Source of the DNA: an uncultured Caulobacterales bacterium
GTDB taxonomy: Bacteria > Pseudomonadota > Alphaproteobacteria > Caulobacterales > Maricaulaceae
NCBI GenBank assembly: GCA_937924355.1
Contig: CALDSY010000155.1
Location: forward strand, 1 to 34,795
DNA: 34,795 bases
Reading direction: 5' to 3'
The first letter of the stretch is position 1. Each line of letters begins with the position of its first letter. The notes under the pieces were generated by a model. That model did not search any database, was not told the DNA's origin, and saw only the letters and a program-made list of their open reading frames with translations. Position numbers and translations under genes: made by a program. Below are positions 22,414 to 31,749 of this stretch, in pieces.

Positions 22414-23211
22414 TTAGATAAACACGGCGACCGATTGCATCCCTTCTGCAATCAGGTCGCCTTTTCTATTCCAGAACCGCATAAGTTGGGAGCAATACCC
22501 GCCCGCCGCCGCATTGAGGATGGTCTCGATCTGAAACCAACCATCCTCTGTGGTGATGTCATCGACCAATATATTCATGTGCCAATTCATGGAACTGATC
22601 GGTCCCATGGTTGTGAACATGGGGAAGGCGGAGGGCGGTAGGACATCGCCCAGACACATAAAGCTGTCGGTGCCGTTCCAACTCGCGGGATCTTTGTGAC
22701 GCGTCCAGCACCGAATATAGCCGCGATCAGAGCCGCTAAATGGGCGTTCCCCTTCGATCATTAGCATGTCAAAATAGTGGGTAAACTTTGGGACGAAATC
22801 CAGCTGTTCGTCCGGGTGGAAAGGGGGTGTGTCTTTAGGAGGCGTGCTATCAGGCATGGATAGGTCTTGGCGAATGCTGGACTCTCGGGATGCGCCGAAC
22901 ATGAGTGTTGCCACAGAGCTCACGCCATCAACACCGATACCCAGAACCTCCACAGAGGTTACATTTCGGCCTTTGCGTAATAGCCGGGTTTCATATCTGG
23001 GCGTGGTTTTGACGGGACCAACAAATGTAACCTGCGCCGTGCGCAAGGGAGGCAAATCTGAAAAGTCTCTCAGCGCTGCCGCGACCGACAGGCCTGCGGT
23101 CACCCCGCCATAGGCGGTTCGACCCTGTCGCCAGCTATCGTCGATATGATAGTCAAGGCCGGACATGACTTTGTCAGCGAGTGTTCGAAAAGGAATCGGA
23201 TTTTCAGACAT
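22414..23211 (-). CDS. TesB-like acyl-CoA thioesterase
   Basis: A 265-residue double hot-dog protein. WRQGRTAYGGVTAGLSVAAA and LRTAQVTFVGPVKTTPRYET are typical of the 4HBT_3 acyl-CoA thioesterase family, and the second half repeats the fold (SSMNWHMNILVDDI, then MRFWNRKGDLIAEGMQSVAV). It likely hydrolyses acyl-CoA to free acid and CoA; chain length cannot be told. Its 3' coding end contains a strong hairpin that can serve as terminator for the convergent M56 operon. Starts at ATG 23211 with a weak ribosome site. Confidence 0.85.
   Translation of the reverse strand: MSENPIPFRTLADKVMSGLDYHIDDSWRQGRTAYGGVTAGLSVAAALRDFSDLPPLRTAQVTFVGPVKTTPRYETRLLRKGRNVTSVEVLGIGVDGVSSVATLMFGASRESSIRQDLSMPDSTPPKDTPPFHPDEQLDFVPKFTHYFDMLMIEGERPFSGSDRGYIRCWTRHKDPASWNGTDSFMCLGDVLPPSAFPMFTTMGPISSMNWHMNILVDDITTEDGWFQIETILNAAAGGYCSQLMRFWNRKGDLIAEGMQSVAVFI
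22426..22465 (+). terminator. Terminator for the blaI-like/M56 operon, inside the convergent thioesterase gene
   Basis: GGCGACCGATTGCA (22426-22439) pairs with TGCAATC-A-GGTCGCC (22447-22461), a 14-bp stem with one bulged A and a 7-base loop, followed by TTTT. It starts 20 bp after the M56 stop and lies wholly within codons for DLIAEGMQSVA of the opposite gene. Confidence 0.8.
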
Positions 23212-23373: not shown

Positions 23374-23853
23374 TTACTCGCCTTCGGGGCTCGATTGTAG
23401 CTGAATATAGTTTTGCAGACCCATTTGCTTGATCATCTCCATCTGGGTTTCAAGCCAGTCGACATGTTCTTCCTCATTGGTCAGGATTTTCTGCAAAAGA
23501 TCGCGGCTCACATAGTCCCGGACTTTTTCGCAATGCTCAATTCCGTCCCGGAGCAGGGGGATAGCGTCGTTTTCGAGCTTGAGGTCACAGTCGAGGATTT
23601 CCTCAACATTTTCGCCGATACGCAGTTTCCCAAGGTCCTGGAGATTGGGTAGGCCATTGAGAAACAAAATCCGCTCGATCAACTCATCGGCATGTTCCAT
23701 CTCTTCAATGGATTCCTCATATTCCTTTTTCGCCAGCTTGCTAATGCCCCAATCTTTGAGCATGCGAGAATGCAGGAAATATTGATTGATCGCTGTCAGC
23801 TCGTTTTTCAGCGCCTTGTTTAAAAAGGTAATGGTCTCAGGATTATCAAGCAT
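23374..23853 (-). CDS. bfr: Bacterioferritin
   Basis: A 159-residue four-helix ferritin. The full ferroxidase site is present at the standard positions (Glu18, Glu51, His54, Glu94, Glu127, His130), and Met52, the heme ligand that defines bacterioferritin, is in place (EEMEHADELIERILFLNGLP). It stores iron as ferric mineral in a 24-mer cage. GGAG lies 7 bases before the ATG. Bfd, which releases the iron, is encoded upstream on the same strand. Confidence 0.97.
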   Translation of the reverse strand: MLDNPETITFLNKALKNELTAINQYFLHSRMLKDWGISKLAKKEYEESIEEMEHADELIERILFLNGLPNLQDLGKLRIGENVEEILDCDLKLENDAIPLLRDGIEHCEKVRDYVSRDLLQKILTNEEEHVDWLETQMEMIKQMGLQNYIQLQSSPEGE

Positions 23854-23995: not shown

Positions 23996-24187
23996 CTATT
24001 CGGCGGCGAGTAATGGCTCTGGGTGAGCCTGAAGTACGGCCAGACGGTCCTCGATAGATTCGCGGCACTGACCACAATTAAAGGCCATGCCACAGTGACT
24101 CTGGACCTGATCGGCGCTTTTGGCGCCGCAGCGGGCCGCTTGGTCGACTTTTGCCGTATTGATATTATTGCAAACGCAATGGATCAT
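23996..24187 (-). CDS. bfd: Bacterioferritin-associated ferredoxin
   Basis: A 63-residue [2Fe-2S] ferredoxin, MIHCVCNNINTAKVDQAARC at the N terminus. Cys4, Cys6, Cys38 and Cys41 reproduce the C-x-C-x31-C-x2-C pattern of E. coli Bfd. It reduces the iron core of bacterioferritin through its heme so that iron is released. The start at 24187 fits the family; upstream in-frame starts would place the promoter inside the gene. No Shine-Dalgarno exists, because the -10 element ends only six bases before the ATG. It lies upstream of bfr on the same strand, a common pairing. Confidence 0.95.
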   Translation of the reverse strand: MIHCVCNNINTAKVDQAARCGAKSADQVQSHCGMAFNCGQCRESIEDRLAVLQAHPEPLLAAE

Positions 24188-24193
24188 GAGGCC

Positions 24194-24223
24194 TATATAG
24201 TGCAATTGAGAATGATTGTCAAT
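24194..24223 (-). promoter_or_regulatory. bfd promoter with Fur box
   Basis: On the minus strand, a perfect TTGACA (24217-24222) stands 17 bases from TATATA (24194-24199). Between and overlapping them is TGAGAATGATTGTCA (24207-24221), which matches the 15-base Fur consensus TGATAATNATTATCA at all but two positions and extends to a 19-bp imperfect palindrome. Iron-loaded Fur would block RNA polymerase and shut off bfd. The expected transcription start coincides with the A of the bfd ATG. Confidence 0.85.
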
Positions 24224-24240
24224 TTTAACAAGTGGTAAAT

Positions 24241-24269
24241 TTGCAGTTATGGTTAATATCCGGTAAATT
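24241..24269 (+). promoter_or_regulatory. Candidate promoter for the ketopantoate reductase-like operon
   Basis: TTGCAG (24241-24246) is followed after 17 bases by TAAATT (24264-24269), 19 bp before the proposed start. It diverges from the bfd promoter, whose Fur box lies about 20 bp upstream, so Fur might affect both genes. Confidence 0.4.
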
Positions 24270-24288
24270 AAAACCATATTTCGAGGAG

Positions 24289-25335
24289 ATGAAATTGGGC
24301 GCTTTAAACCCGTTAAATGTGGTCATTTTGGGGGCTGGTTCGATAGGCTGTTACCTCGGGGGGTATCTTCAATCGGCGGGCGCGTCTGTAACCTTTATAG
24401 GGCGGGAGCGTGTGAAATGGGACCTGGATATGAAGGGTCTAACCCTGACCCATTATAAACGTAGGCCGGTTCACATATCCCGGGAACACATCAATTATCA
24501 AATGGTGTATGAGCCTTTGGCTGCGGCAGATGTCATTTTAGTCTGTGTAAAATCTCAGGATACGGCCGACGTCGCCCGCACAATTGCCCAGCTCGCCCCG
24601 GCTCAGGCTTTGCTTGTCAGTTTTCAAAACGGCGTGTCCAATGCCGAGACATTGCGCCAACATACGGCCCGTCCCACGCTGGCGGCGATTGTCCCTTTTA
24701 ATGTCACGCCGTCGGGGCGCGGAGAATATCACTGCGGGACCGAAGGTGATTTGATCATCGAAGCCACAGATGATGCGCGGTCGAAAACGTTGGTCAAAGC
24801 CTTCAAAAAATCCGGGATCGGCGTAAAAACCACAAAGGAAATTGTAAATTATCAATGGGGCAAACTGATCATCAATTTGAACAATGCCTTGAATGCTTTA
24901 TCGGGCGGGACGTTACGGCAAGGTTTGTCGCAAAAACCCTATCGGCAGGTCTGCGCGGCGATGATGGAAGAAGCGCTGAACATTTGCCGGGGGGCAGGGA
25001 CCGACCCCAAATCCTTCAGCAAGACATCGGTAGAAAAATCCATCAAAGTTTTAAGGCTGCCCAATCTTTTGTTTGGTCCGGTCATGAACAATATCATCAA
25101 GATTGATGAAAATGCCCGCTCGTCGACACTGGATGATCTGGAGGCTGGAAAGGCGTCGGAGGTGGATTATTTGCAAGGGGAAATTGTTCGTCTTGCGCGG
25201 CAGACAAACCAGTACGCGCCGATTAATTTGACCGTTTTGGAGCATGTTCAGAAGGCTTTTATGGTCGGGCAATCCCCCAATATGACAGGAGATGACTTGC
25301 TGAATTTGTTTGATTCCAGTGGAGGGTTTCAATAG
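24289..25335 (+). CDS. Ketopantoate reductase-like (ApbA/PanE family) oxidoreductase
   Basis: A 348-residue NADPH-type Rossmann enzyme. NVVILGAGSIGCYLGGYLQS holds the GxGxxG motif. VILVCVKSQDT and LVSFQNGVSN match the ApbA/PanE core, and NYQWGKLIINLNNALNALSG carries the conserved lysine of the family's C-terminal domain. PanE reduces 2-dehydropantoate to pantoate, but many paralogues act on other 2-keto acids. Starts considered: ATG 24289 (touching GAGGAG) or TTG 24295, which sits at better distance from that site. The methyltransferase gene follows after 9 bp, so it may serve a pathway with those enzymes rather than vitamin B5 synthesis. Confidence 0.85.
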   Translation: MKLGALNPLNVVILGAGSIGCYLGGYLQSAGASVTFIGRERVKWDLDMKGLTLTHYKRRPVHISREHINYQMVYEPLAAADVILVCVKSQDTADVARTIAQLAPAQALLVSFQNGVSNAETLRQHTARPTLAAIVPFNVTPSGRGEYHCGTEGDLIIEATDDARSKTLVKAFKKSGIGVKTTKEIVNYQWGKLIINLNNALNALSGGTLRQGLSQKPYRQVCAAMMEEALNICRGAGTDPKSFSKTSVEKSIKVLRLPNLLFGPVMNNIIKIDENARSSTLDDLEAGKASEVDYLQGEIVRLARQTNQYAPINLTVLEHVQKAFMVGQSPNMTGDDLLNLFDSSGGFQ

Positions 25336-25344
25336 GTCCCGGAT

Positions 25345-26097
25345 ATGGAACTGGATATCATACCGGCTTGCGGATTAAACATATTGGCGAAAAATGCCTT
25401 TGGCAAAACGGACGCGCTGCCGGATCATGATCTGATCATGTTGAAAAATCGCCAGCAAAGGCGGCTGTGGGAGCAAAAGATCAAGCTACACAAGCCAAGG
25501 CTGAACCATATACTGGAACTGGGTATCGCAGACGGCGGAAGTCTCCCCTATATATTCGAAATTTGTGACGCTGACTTTATCGCTGGCGTCGATATTCTTC
25601 CGGAGGATCCCAAAATACGGAGCGCCTATAATCGTTCGACAATGGAAGGCAAGTTTTCGCTTAATTTTGAAACAGATCAGACGGATCGGGCCGCGTTGAA
25701 TAAAATCGTCGCTGATAATTTTGGCGACGGGCTAGATATGATTATCGATGACGCGTCGCATTTTCTCGGCAATACGAGGGCGTCATTTGAGATATTGTTT
25801 CCGCATTTACGACCCGGCGGCTTGTATGTGATCGAAGACTATACATGGTCTCACAATGAAGCTTTCGCGATGATTGCAGCGAAGCGCTATTCAGGTCAGC
25901 CAATGACGTCCCAGCTTGTCCTGGAATTTACCATGCTGATGTCGACCCACCAAAAATGGATATCTCGGGTCGTGGCGGACTATAATACCATTACCGTTGT
26001 AAAAGGCCCGGCTAAGGTGCCTGATCCGCTATCCATCAAAGATAACACGGTGAATTGGGCCCCGTTACAGATGTCAAAACTGGCAGGACCACAATGA
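25345..26097 (+). CDS. Class I SAM-dependent methyltransferase, copy 1 of tandem pair
   Basis: A 250-residue protein with LELGIADGGSLPYIFE (57-72, SAM motif I), AGVDILPE (80-87, ribose contact), MIIDDASHF (132-140) and GGLYVIEDY (158-166). The IDDxSH element and layout recall MycE/TylE-type sugar O-methyltransferases and CmcI, in which the Asp pair binds magnesium. The substrate is unknown. The second copy overlaps its stop by 4 bases (ATGA) and is similar throughout, including the unusual N terminus (DIIPACGLNILAK) and C terminus (SIKDNTVNWAPLQMS). The pair is thus a recent-looking local duplication that has since diverged. Confidence 0.82.
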   Translation: MELDIIPACGLNILAKNAFGKTDALPDHDLIMLKNRQQRRLWEQKIKLHKPRLNHILELGIADGGSLPYIFEICDADFIAGVDILPEDPKIRSAYNRSTMEGKFSLNFETDQTDRAALNKIVADNFGDGLDMIIDDASHFLGNTRASFEILFPHLRPGGLYVIEDYTWSHNEAFAMIAAKRYSGQPMTSQLVLEFTMLMSTHQKWISRVVADYNTITVVKGPAKVPDPLSIKDNTVNWAPLQMSKLAGPQ

Positions 26098-26855
26098 AGG
26101 GGGTTGATGTTATAGACGCTTGCGGTCTCCGCATTTTGGCGAAAGAGGATATTTATCAAAAGAATGTTGACCTTCCTCCCCATGATCTGATTATCCGAAA
26201 AAATGCCCGGCAAAGGCGGCTTTGGGAGGGGCGGGTTAAGGGCCGAAAACACCGTTTCAACCAGATATTGGAAGTTGGAATCGCCGCTGGCGGAAGCCTC
26301 CCCTACCTGTTTGATCTTTGTGATGCGGATTTTATTGCTGGTGTCGATATTTTGCCGGAAACGTCTAAAATCCCGAACCTATATAACCGGTCGAAATTAC
26401 GGGGAAATTTCGCCCTGTATTTCGAAACAGATCAGACAGACCGAAACGCCTTGCAATCCATTGTCTCGACACATTTCCAGGACGGGCTGGATCTGATCGT
26501 TGACGACGGGTCTCATCTTCTGGACCACACCCGGGATACATTTGAAATTCTGTTTCCCCATCTAAAGCGGGGCGGTCTCTATGTGATCGAAGATTATGGA
26601 TGGTCTCAGAATCAAGGCTTCGCCTATCTGGCAGAGGACAGATATCGAAATCAGCCGACGACGACGCAATTGGTTCTCGAACTGACCATGCTCATGTGCA
26701 CCCATCCAAACTGGATCACTCGGGTCGTGGCTGACTGTAATACCATCACAGTTGAAAAAGGTCCGGCGCCCGTGACCAAGGCGTTTTCGATCAAAGACTC
26801 GTCTTTTAACTGGGCACCTGTGGAATTGAGCGCATTGGTGCAACCTGAAAACTAA
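26094..26855 (+). CDS. Class I SAM-dependent methyltransferase, copy 2 of tandem pair
   Basis: A 253-residue paralogue of the preceding gene, starting MKGVDVIDACGLRILAK. It keeps all the motifs: LEVGIAAGGSLPYLFD, AGVDILPE, LIVDDGSHLL and GGLYVIEDYGWS. The start at 26094 is preferred over 26055, since it aligns with copy 1 and lies in the ATGA overlap. By eye about 60 percent of residues match copy 1, with changes spread evenly. Two active-looking copies suggest two methylations on one molecule, or a heterodimer. The stop lies in a CTAAAC/GTTTAG hairpin shared with the end of the convergent fabI. Confidence 0.82.
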   Translation: MKGVDVIDACGLRILAKEDIYQKNVDLPPHDLIIRKNARQRRLWEGRVKGRKHRFNQILEVGIAAGGSLPYLFDLCDADFIAGVDILPETSKIPNLYNRSKLRGNFALYFETDQTDRNALQSIVSTHFQDGLDLIVDDGSHLLDHTRDTFEILFPHLKRGGLYVIEDYGWSQNQGFAYLAEDRYRNQPTTTQLVLELTMLMCTHPNWITRVVADCNTITVEKGPAPVTKAFSIKDSSFNWAPVELSALVQPEN

Positions 26856-26868
26856 ACTGTCCGTTTAG
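26852..26868. other. Short hairpin spanning both convergent stop codons
   Basis: CTAAAC (26852-26857) and GTTTAG (26863-26868) form a 6-bp AT-rich stem with a TGTCC loop. It contains the TAA of the second methyltransferase and the TAA of fabI on the other strand. No T-run is present on either side, so any terminator role is weak. Confidence 0.35.
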
Positions 26869-27692
26869 CCTAAAGCGTCCTTGAGCGGTTCTTCCTGCGG
26901 CATGCCGATGGCGTGGAAGCCGCCGTCCACATGATGGGTTTCGCCCGTGCATGAGAGCCCCAGATCAGAAAGCAGATACAGCGCTGCGCCTGCGACACCC
27001 ACAACATCCGTATTATCGCGCATGGCGCTGGCGGCCTTGTTGAACTTGAACATATGACGCCCAGAGCCGATTCCGGCTGCGGCCAGAGTTTTAATCGGTC
27101 CGGCGGAAATCGCATTGACCCGTATGCCGCGCGGGCCTAGGTCAGCGGCGATATAGCGGGTACAGGCTTCGAGGGCCGCTTTGGCTACGCCCATGACATT
27201 GTAATTCGGGATAACGCGTTCGGAACCCAGATAAGTCATCGTCACCATAGCGCCGCCATCATTCATCATCGCGCTTGCGCGCCGCGCCGCATCAACAAAT
27301 GAATAGGCGGAAATATCCAGCGCCTGACGAAATCCGTCCCGGGTTGTGTTATCGATAAATGATCCGGCCAATTGTTCTTTGCCGGCAAAGGCGATGGCGT
27401 GGACCAGAAAGTCAATCTTGCCCCATTTGTCTTTCAGGGTCGAAAATGTGTTGTCCATGGTCGCATCATCGGTCACGTCACATTCGACGAGTATGTCTGA
27501 GCCTATCCCTTCGGCCAGAGGTTTGACGCGGCGCAACAAGGCATCGCCTTGGTAAGTGAAGGCCAGTTCTGCCCCTTGCGCGTGGAGCTGCCTGGCGATG
27601 GCCCAGGCGATAGAGTTTTTATTGGCGACACCCATGATTAGGCCGCGCTTGCCTTTCATCAGCTCTCCAGCGGGAAAGTGTTGTTCAGCCAT
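26865..27692 (-). CDS. fabI: Enoyl-[acyl-carrier-protein] reductase (NADH)
   Basis: A 275-residue FabI of the short-chain dehydrogenase fold. It reduces trans-2-enoyl-ACP in the last step of each fatty acid elongation cycle. The N terminus has KGKRGLIMGVANKNSIAWAI, the FabI-type nucleotide loop. The catalytic residues are Tyr154 (TYLGSERV) and the Tyr164-x6-Lys171 pair (YNVMGVAK), with the C-terminal SCTGETHHVDGGFHAIGMP typical of the family. Located 18 bp after fur, as the probable last gene of a five-gene operon. It is the usual target of triclosan-type inhibitors. Confidence 0.96.
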   Translation of the reverse strand: MAEQHFPAGELMKGKRGLIMGVANKNSIAWAIARQLHAQGAELAFTYQGDALLRRVKPLAEGIGSDILVECDVTDDATMDNTFSTLKDKWGKIDFLVHAIAFAGKEQLAGSFIDNTTRDGFRQALDISAYSFVDAARRASAMMNDGGAMVTMTYLGSERVIPNYNVMGVAKAALEACTRYIAADLGPRGIRVNAISAGPIKTLAAAGIGSGRHMFKFNKAASAMRDNTDVVGVAGAALYLLSDLGLSCTGETHHVDGGFHAIGMPQEEPLKDALG

Positions 27693-29795: not shown

Positions 29796-29911
29796 GATCT
29801 ACTCCGATGCTTGGCAGACTACATGGCGATTTATGGGCGGCTCTGCAATAGGGCTGTGAAATTAATCCCACACGACTTGACCTTTTTGCCCAAGCGGGTT
29901 TGAACACAGCT

Positions 29912-30865
29912 ATGACGCGTTGGCTGGCGATAATACCTCTTGTCCTACTGGGATGCACCAGTCTGAATACCCGTTTACCGGATACGGACGTCGTGGCTGT
30001 TCAAAAAGAGAAAATCACGCAAGAACAGGCTGCCTTTGAAGAAATCGATCGCCTTCGCGCCCGTTTGGATACAGTCGCTCACCGCGTCCTGAGCGCCAAT
30101 GCCGACCTCTGTGAGAAAACCGCGCCCGATCCGGGTCTCAAGACCCAAAGCCTGAAATCCTTCCCCAAAGAGCTACGGGAAGGTGCCCGGCGCGAGCTGG
30201 GTCTCGGTGATAAACATTTGGTGGTTTATGTGCGGCCTGGATCTTCTGCAGATAAAGCCGGGCTACAAAAAGGGGATCAGATTTTTGGCAAAGACGGCGT
30301 CTTATCTGCGCCCGGCAAGACGTTGAACTGGCATCTAAAAGAGGGTGTACAAATTCAGAAATCCCGTCTGGGAGTCAAAGAAAATATCAATCTGGAAGGC
30401 GATGAGGCGTGCTATTACCCGGCTTTGCTTCGCATGAGCTCGGCCATCAATGCTTACGCCAATGGGAAATCTATCATCGTTACTGCAGGCATGATGAATT
30501 TCGTTAAATCCGATGACGAGCTGGCCTATATCATCGGTCACGAACTGGCCCACAACACCCAAAGCCATATTCGTAAATCCGTGACCAATTATGTTCTGTC
30601 ATTGGGCGGAACGCGCTATACGCGTATTTTTGAATCTGAAGCCGATTATGTGGGGCTCTACTATATGGCCCGCGCCGGTTTTGACCCGGCTAATGTCGAA
30701 GATCTCTGGCGGCGTTTGGCGTTGCAATCTTTGCGCGGGATTGGACGAGCCAAAACCCATCCGGCCTATCCTAATCGGTCTGTTCAGATCGAGGCGACAC
30801 GAGCCGAAATCGCGGCCAAGACATCGGCCGGCGAACCCCTGATACCGGAACTCAAAGACGAGTGA
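29912..30865 (+). CDS. PDZ-M48 metalloprotease lipoprotein, copy 1
   Basis: About 317 residues from ATG 29912. The signal has lipobox LLGC with Cys15, so it is likely anchored in the envelope. A PDZ-like segment covers about 98-145 (VYVRPGSSADKAGLQKGDQI). It is followed by the M48 catalytic part with IIGHELAHNTQSH (His210, Glu211, His214) and the third-ligand region FESEADYVGLYY. M48 lipoproteins such as BepA handle outer membrane protein quality control. Putting the PDZ domain ahead of the catalytic domain is less usual. A TTG at 29900 is a possible alternative start. The second copy overlaps its stop by 4 bases (GTGA). Confidence 0.85.
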   Translation: MTRWLAIIPLVLLGCTSLNTRLPDTDVVAVQKEKITQEQAAFEEIDRLRARLDTVAHRVLSANADLCEKTAPDPGLKTQSLKSFPKELREGARRELGLGDKHLVVYVRPGSSADKAGLQKGDQIFGKDGVLSAPGKTLNWHLKEGVQIQKSRLGVKENINLEGDEACYYPALLRMSSAINAYANGKSIIVTAGMMNFVKSDDELAYIIGHELAHNTQSHIRKSVTNYVLSLGGTRYTRIFESEADYVGLYYMARAGFDPANVEDLWRRLALQSLRGIGRAKTHPAYPNRSVQIEATRAEIAAKTSAGEPLIPELKDE

Positions 30866-31749
30866 GCCAAATTATCAAAATCATGATGGGATTATGGGGC
30901 TTTGTATTTTTAGCAGCCTGCCAACCTTCTGAAAGTGAAGTCACCCAAGCTTTAGTTCCCGCCGAAGATGATGTATTGCAGCAGTTCTTGGATCTGAATG
31001 CCACACTCGAAAACACAGCCTTTCGTATCCTTACGGCCAATGTCACGGATTGCCCCGAAACAGGCCCTGAAGTAGGGCTCCGTATTCATACGATTTTCGA
31101 TTTCCCCGAAGATATGCGCAAGGAAGCCAGGACCCGTTTGTCAATTGGACCAAGGCCGTTCGTGCGCCACGTTATTCCGGACTCGCCGGCTGAAAAGGCA
31201 GGCCTGAAAACCGGCGATGAAATCCTGTCTATTGGTGAAATTGATATGATTGAGGGCGACCGCTCACGCCTGTTTTATGAGGTCGTCTCGCGCGGCGAAT
31301 GGACGACCGGTACAACCCAGATCACGTTTAAACGGGGACAAGAAACCGACTCGGTTCAGCTCACGCCGCTCAATGCGTGTGCTTATCCCGTCCAGCTTTT
31401 CTTTGCAGATATGATCAATGCCTACACGGACGGCGAAGAGATTTGGGTAACTACGGAATTGGTCAATACCATTGATGCAGAAGAGTCCCTGGCTATGATC
31501 ATAGCGCATGAACTTGCCCACGCCACTGAAGGCCATATTTTTAAAACCCCAACCAAGGCTTTTGAATTAGACGCCGATCGCCTAGGGATGAAATATATTC
31601 TCGCGGCCGGTTATGATGGCCAGCTCGCTCTGGCACAGTGGAGCGCCAACCCGCTTAATCACAAATCCCAGATAGAGGACACCCATCCGGTTTTCGAAGA
31701 ACGCTGGCGGGCGATTGACAAAGCCCTCCAGGATTTTGGTCAAGAGTAA
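30862..31749 (+). CDS. PDZ-M48 metalloprotease lipoprotein, copy 2
   Basis: A 295-residue paralogue of the preceding gene, starting at GTG 30862 within the upstream stop. The signal ends in lipobox LAAC (Cys20). A PDZ-like segment at about 97-150 (VIPDSPAEKAGLKTGDEILS) leads to the M48 motif MIIAHELAHATEGH (His216, Glu217, His220) and FELDADRLGMKY, where the ligand Glu is kept while the next acidic residue is Asp rather than Glu. Divergence from copy 1 is large outside the motifs. It converges on the PCuAC gene with a 16-bp gap holding TTAGTG three times. Confidence 0.84.
   Translation: MSQIIKIMMGLWGFVFLAACQPSESEVTQALVPAEDDVLQQFLDLNATLENTAFRILTANVTDCPETGPEVGLRIHTIFDFPEDMRKEARTRLSIGPRPFVRHVIPDSPAEKAGLKTGDEILSIGEIDMIEGDRSRLFYEVVSRGEWTTGTTQITFKRGQETDSVQLTPLNACAYPVQLFFADMINAYTDGEEIWVTTELVNTIDAEESLAMIIAHELAHATEGHIFKTPTKAFELDADRLGMKYILAAGYDGQLALAQWSANPLNHKSQIEDTHPVFEERWRAIDKALQDFGQE

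Follow-up and report, generated by a model that had tools for sequence, protein, structure and literature searches.

We examined a three-gene locus encoding a reductase (RED) and two methyltransferases (MT1 and MT2) in a 34,795-nucleotide stretch of DNA, referred to here as the window, which is contig CALDSY010000155.1 of assembly GCA_937924355.1 from an uncultured marine Caulobacterales bacterium. Comparison within the genus Hellea indicates that RED is the conserved part of the locus and that the MTs are optional extras, which makes the locus a modest variation and not a novel pathway. Our preferred explanation, held tentatively and with somewhat less than even confidence, is that a housekeeping-type reductase of the PanE family carries in its operon optional, probably glycan-directed O-methyltransferases of the MycE-like kind. 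The genome assembly (G000) comprises 255 contigs, totals 2.3 Mb, and is 82% complete. The three genes are as follows.

24295..25335, forward strand: RED, a 2-ketoacid reductase of the PanE/ApbA family, with a TTG start preferred over the ATG at 24289 given earlier.
25345..26097, forward strand: MT1, a single-domain MycE-like class I O-methyltransferase of 250 amino acids.
26094..26855, forward strand: MT2, a paralogue of MT1 of 253 amino acids.

The first-pass annotation, made from the sequence of the window, had described three open reading frames on the same strand with spacings of 9 and −4 bp, and both the coordinates and the gaps were borne out: 9 bp separate RED from MT1, and the start of MT2 lies over the stop of MT1 in a 4 bp overlap. 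A fabI-like gene converges on the trio 9 bp past MT2. The RED frame itself was also correct, apart from its start. The TTG at 24295 is probably the start codon rather than the ATG at 24289, judging from the Shine–Dalgarno spacing (GAGGAG directly abuts the ATG) and from the orthologues in G002 and G004, which start with Met-Gly-Ala at the residue aligned with the TTG.

We compared ten Hellea genomes, G000 included, and RED or a remnant of it adjoins fabI in all ten. The MTs follow RED in three of the ten, with two copies in G000 and one each in G004 and G001, and were not found in the other seven, which include the nearest relative, G002. All of these MTs lie on the strand of RED, after a short gap (9 bp in G000, 21 bp in G004, and 36 bp in G001), and fill the space from RED to the convergent fabI, where they would be co-transcribed with RED. 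The single MT of G004 is 70% identical to MT1, and that of G001 is 49% identical to MT1 and 52% to MT2. The RED of G002 is 85% identical to that of G000 and runs straight into fabI without MTs; its C-terminal tail is different from the one common to G000 and G004, and both features fit a deletion of the MTs in G002. In G003, another small gene occupies the slot between RED and fabI. MT relatives at an identity of at least 48% are confined to Hellea among the genomes searched, and the scan of named genomes returned two relatives, both in metagenome-assembled genomes of Hellea sp. The trio was thus seen in G000 alone. The three genes had been read as a functional trio, which this distribution does not support: the trio occurs in none of the nine other genus genomes, RED with one MT occurs in two of the nine, and RED is conserved without the MTs. 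The operon-like layout is borne out, and the trio is not conserved in the relatives.

The assignment of the first gene to the PanE/ApbA family was confirmed by PF02558 (96.9 bits; cut-off 22.2), PF08546 (75.6 bits; cut-off 22.7), and TIGR00745 (191.4 bits; cut-off 141.35), all past their cut-offs. Lys190 and Glu289 of RED are conserved without exception in the 17 homologues aligned and line up with Lys176 and Glu256 of E. coli PanE, which we take to be the catalytic residues of that enzyme. We expect RED to be a 2-ketoacid reductase of the usual PanE type, dependent on NAD(P)H, and its most likely role is that of ketopantoate reductase in pantothenate and coenzyme A (CoA) synthesis. At E ≤ 1e-15, TIGR00745 has a single match, RED, in nine of the ten genus genomes and none in G005, and weaker PF02558 matches are present in all ten. 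Another panE elsewhere in the genome, which the first-pass annotation had proposed to look for, was accordingly not found at this threshold. Two of the weaker PF02558 matches, both in G000, were looked at and rejected as a second PanE: the match on contig C147 is a glycerol-3-phosphate dehydrogenase, and that on contig C168 is a partial protein that appears by eye to be a 3-hydroxyisobutyrate-type dehydrogenase.

The genes on either side of the pantoate step are widely present, with panB in all ten genus genomes and panC in nine, both of them in G000. The alternative enzyme IlvC (KARI_C) was not detected in G000, G002, G004 (rated 100% complete), or G007. The other six genomes do have it, among them G005, in which RED (L045:4266-5340) is split into several frames with stops and panB and panC are also present. 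According to two reports, the ilvC of Buchnera can replace panE, as seen by complementation (PMC4306246), and a Salmonella panE mutant retains about 10% of its CoA via IlvC (PMC5965847). Since IlvC can replace PanE and was not found in these four genomes, RED may plausibly be the sole enzyme of their clade that reduces ketopantoate, as far as gene content indicates. The case in which RED is the sole pantoate-synthesis enzyme among unrelated neighbours had been named by the first-pass annotation as one that would tell against its own proposal; this case is plausible from the gene content. Loss of the whole branched-chain pathway was considered as the reason for the missing IlvC and set aside, as TIGR00119 is absent from all ten genus genomes although six have IlvC, and is therefore uninformative.

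Several observations weigh against pantoate synthesis as the role of RED. RED scores 354.9 bits against the closest NCBIfam equivalog, PRK08229 (NF006083), below the cut-off of 371, which the homologue in G021 passes (383) and those in G025 (368.6) and G002 (362.8) fail. Among the relatives without a TIGR00745 match, 34 of 37 retain panC, so the pathway does not generally require RED; G016 and G032 have panC, but no IlvC and no TIGR00745 reductase (E ≤ 1e-15) was detected in them. The complementarity of RED and IlvC is not significant, with a one-sided Fisher p of 0.075 across 61 related genomes and of 0.156 across the 56 genomes with panC, both uncorrected for phylogeny. Finally, the recurrent neighbours of RED, a thioesterase (TE) and a DsbA-fold protein (ISO), suggest another role. 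The neighbours in the window are as follows.

22414..23211, reverse strand: TE, a two-domain acyl-CoA thioesterase (PF13622 and PF20789), divergent from RED.
23374..23853, reverse strand: bfr, a ferritin-like protein (PF00210, 138.6 bits).
23996..24187, reverse strand: bfd, a BFD-like [2Fe-2S] domain protein (PF04324, 31.2 bits), divergent from RED and adjoining it in seven of the ten genus genomes.
26865..27692, reverse strand: fabI-like enoyl-ACP reductase (PF13561, 292 bits), convergent, at the downstream edge.

RED loci were fetched from 24 of the 25 genomes with a match, and several of these loci are cut by contig ends. In 11 of the 24 loci, TE is encoded on the opposite strand no more than 3 kb upstream of RED. 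The fabI gene lies downstream on the opposite strand in 13 of the 24 and in all ten genus genomes. ISO (PF01323), which by eye resembles 2-hydroxychromene-2-carboxylate isomerase, lies upstream of RED on the same strand in five of the 24 (one being the locus of the ISO query itself), at 8–109 bp in four and at 2.1 kb in the fifth. Three loci (L051:8063-11305, L053:7034-9817, and L049:5045-7867) contain an apparent operon of RED and the DsbA-fold gene, with an SDR gene as well in L051, next to a divergent acyl-CoA thioesterase; this arrangement is perhaps the older context of RED. RED could accordingly be a hydroxy-acid dehydrogenase in a small catabolic module with TE and ISO, to which the MTs were added later. 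The recurrence of TE and ISO and the dispensability of RED, as seen in the relatives that keep panC and in the broken copy of G005, speak for this explanation. We nevertheless consider it unlikely: RED retains both catalytic residues of PanE (Lys and Glu), ISO does not adjoin RED in G000, where its sole match is weak (E 7.4e-4), and no NCBIfam model was reported at its own cut-off for ISO or TE. Moreover, fabI and bfd/bfr recur beside RED too, so that the neighbourhood alone is a weak argument.

In the Pfam search (E ≤ 0.001), the sole match of the MTs was PF13578 (Methyltransf_24), with 21.3 bits for MT1, which is under the cut-off of 26.3, and 28.5 bits for MT2. Neither PF04989, which we take to be the family of CmcI (cephalosporin hydroxylase/methyltransferase), nor TylF/MycF (PF05711) was reported for MT1 or MT2 at this threshold. 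The MTs had been called MycE/CmcI-like; the CmcI half of this label finds no counterpart in Pfam, and the MycE half agrees with profile, fold, and Foldseek results. A profile built from the four genus MTs matched MycE (2.2e-12) and SpnK (4.8e-11) among the solved structures. The structure model was poor when built from a 4-sequence alignment (predicted local distance difference test score 42.9) and reached 87.3 with a 13-sequence alignment. Its best structural match is MycE (Z 18.8, rmsd (root-mean-square deviation) 4.9, 190 aligned, 25% identity), and Foldseek likewise retrieved MycE at E 5.1e-13, with the first match outside MycE/SpnK at 6e-8. Across the 13 sequences aligned, Asp136 and Asp165 of MT1 never vary, nor does the His of DD-x-SH. 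The two aspartates correspond to Asp275 and Asp304 of MycE (numbered by counting along the alignment and allowing for a 20-residue tag), which are given as its Mg ligands in PMC9275233. MT1 and MT2 are thus predicted to be lineage-restricted, single-domain O-methyltransferases of the MycE/SpnK type that depend on S-adenosylmethionine and a divalent metal.

Outside the genus, MT matches at E ≤ 1e-10 are rare (5 of 384 other genomes sampled in the class and 10 of 397 in the phylum), and the best of them scores 127.7 bits versus 473–482 for the copies of the window. Of the five nearest cousins read outside the genus, two lie in polysaccharide-type clusters. In G503, the cousin (L138:2592-4262, 557 amino acids) has a TylF domain (PF05711) in its N-terminal half and a MycE-like MT in its C-terminal half, and its cluster encodes radical-SAM/SPASM proteins, a WbsX glycosyltransferase, and a protein that combines SPASM and radical-SAM domains with a Wzt C-terminal domain. 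In G603, the cousin is near a GDP-mannose-dehydratase/epimerase-type gene and a nucleotidyltransferase gene. More distant plasmid cousins are found near rfbF and a glycosyltransferase in Methylocystis and near polysaccharide-export genes in Sinorhizobium. The earlier guess of a sugar or surface-glycan target is a reasonable one, given the likeness to MycE and the neighbours of some cousins, and the MTs would most likely methylate vicinal sugar hydroxyls of a glycan whose synthesis is encoded elsewhere in the genome, sharing a transcript with RED while serving a separate pathway.

Two sets of data count against a glycan target. The tRNA methyltransferase TrmR ties with MycE by fold (Z 18.6 against 18.8), being only 12% identical, and three of the five nearest cousins (G531, a Vibrio europaeus plasmid, and G047) have no obvious sugar cluster. 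Action on a non-sugar small molecule or on RNA would fit these data, as well as the Z of 17.4 obtained with COMT and the two opened Vibrio plasmid cousins (that of Vibrio europaeus included), both of which adjoin EamA transporters and not sugar genes. We regard such a target as doubtful, for MycE and SpnK share 22–26% identity with the MTs (best E 5e-13) versus 12–17% for TrmR and COMT, and sugars are also indicated by the fusion to TylF and by the polysaccharide-type genes near several cousins.

MT1 and MT2, with the motifs IIDDASH and IVDDGSH, are 63% identical along their whole length, in line with the description of two diverged IDDxSH methyltransferases. Their N and C termini had been described as matching, and a shared partner or substrate had been proposed on that basis. 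However, in blocks of 25 alignment columns, the identity is lowest at the ends (12/23 in the first block and 11/25 in columns 226–250) and amounts to 14–20/25 in the eight inner blocks; the termini are the least conserved parts, and the proposal loses its footing. The two genes would have arisen by duplication. In the MT tree, MT1 groups with the G004 MT and not with MT2 (support 0.96), from which either the duplication predates the split of G000 and G004 or MT2 diverged faster. A tree of concatenated neighbouring genes, in which several genomes have few genes, joins G000 with G002, then G004, then G007 (1.00, 0.91, and 0.98), with G001 elsewhere; in the RED tree, G007 instead pairs with G001 (0.87). 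The nonsynonymous divergence (dN) between MT1 and the G004 MT is 0.217, similar to the 0.226 of RED between G000 and G004. Only dN was used because the synonymous divergence, calculated with Biopython (YN00, with NG86 as the fallback), was >1.6 or undefined in all ten pairs. A viral origin of the MTs was rejected, with none of 36 viral-contig pattern matches confirmed and no phage match for MT2, as was a plasmid origin, the plasmid matches of MT1 being distant (11 records, of which four were opened and none covers 80%).

A dedicated pathway, with a 2-keto acid or keto-sugar as the substrate of RED and the reduced product O-methylated by the MTs, would explain the tight spacing of RED and MT in G000, G004, and G001 and the open frames of RED, MT1, and MT2 with their conserved catalytic residues. 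A distant MT cousin in G253 (L081:1568-7915) also lies 4.7 kb from panC (PF02569, 311.8 bits), a proximity that could hint at a pantothenate link, counter to our separation of the two functions, or be due to chance. Such a pathway is nonetheless quite improbable: RED occurs without MTs in seven of the ten genus genomes (as a remnant in one), the nearest relative among them, and adjoins fabI whether or not MTs are present; the 16 stretches surrounding MT cousins of other genera gave no RED match better than E 0.001; and a literature search for a set of RED and two MTs found no paper.

A further element lies in the divergent intergenic region between bfd and RED.

24207..24221, no strand assigned: putative Fur-like box, TGAGAATGATTGTCA, with 2 mismatches to TGATAATNATTATCA.

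The box was scored against TGATAATNATTATCA, which we take to be the Fur consensus, and is one of two places in the window within 3 mismatches of it. A similar box (2–3 mismatches) is present in all seven genus genomes in which bfd adjoins RED, and also in G014. Read on the minus strand, the box shares positions with a TTGACA hexamer (24222-24217), and 17 bp separate this hexamer from a TATATA (24199-24194) ahead of bfd; the pair is absent from the list of the consensus promoter scan. Given this overlap, the putative box most simply controls bfd, which it probably serves. A genus-specific pathway in which RED makes a 2-hydroxy acid, either pantoate or a branched analogue of it, that the two metal-dependent MTs O-methylate, possibly under iron control through this intergenic region, would yield a methylated pantoate-like or surface-acid product and is very improbable. 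A scan of 24100-26950 gave 2 terminator-like sites versus 3.9 in shuffles and 11 promoter-like sites versus 4.0, neither of which was used as evidence, and a search of the window at gathering thresholds found no known RNA element. A member of the Fur family is the second gene after MT2. Further along, at 29900-31749, two tandem diverged proteins each match Peptidase_M48 and PDZ, and matches to this pair lie side by side in G001, G002, G004, G006, G008, and G009.

As the locus illustrates, an operon described from a single genome can consist of a conserved housekeeping-type gene and optional passengers. In addition, it points to a clade that seems to lack IlvC and may therefore have a PanE homologue as its sole ketopantoate reductase, and to compact, genus-restricted MycE-like methyltransferases as potential tools for sugar O-methylation. 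Like PanE/ApbA proteins (TIGR00745; PRK08229/NF006083), RED has both domains, a Rossmann GAGSIG motif, and the catalytic Lys/Glu pair; unlike those of PRK08229, it falls under the equivalog cut-off, and its neighbours are TE, bfd, and fabI instead of pan genes. In Nocardia, ThnM1, a rhamnose 2'-O-methyltransferase, belongs to the MycE family and depends on a divalent metal (PMC9275233). The best MT match outside the genus, the C-terminal half of the G503 protein, is 28% identical to MT1 and differs in its fusion to TylF. The MTs share with MycE (PDB 3ssm/3ssn/3sso) and SpnK (8ia9/8iaa) the sequence and fold of the catalytic domain, the metal-binding Asp pair, and the DD-x-SH and IED motifs, and no antibiotic cluster was seen in the region read around them. 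Compared with the MycE and SpnK chains of 419 and 397 residues, MT1 and MT2, at 250–253 residues, are without the extra N-terminal part, and by this difference in length they are classed as single-domain relatives of MycE and SpnK rather than MycE proper.

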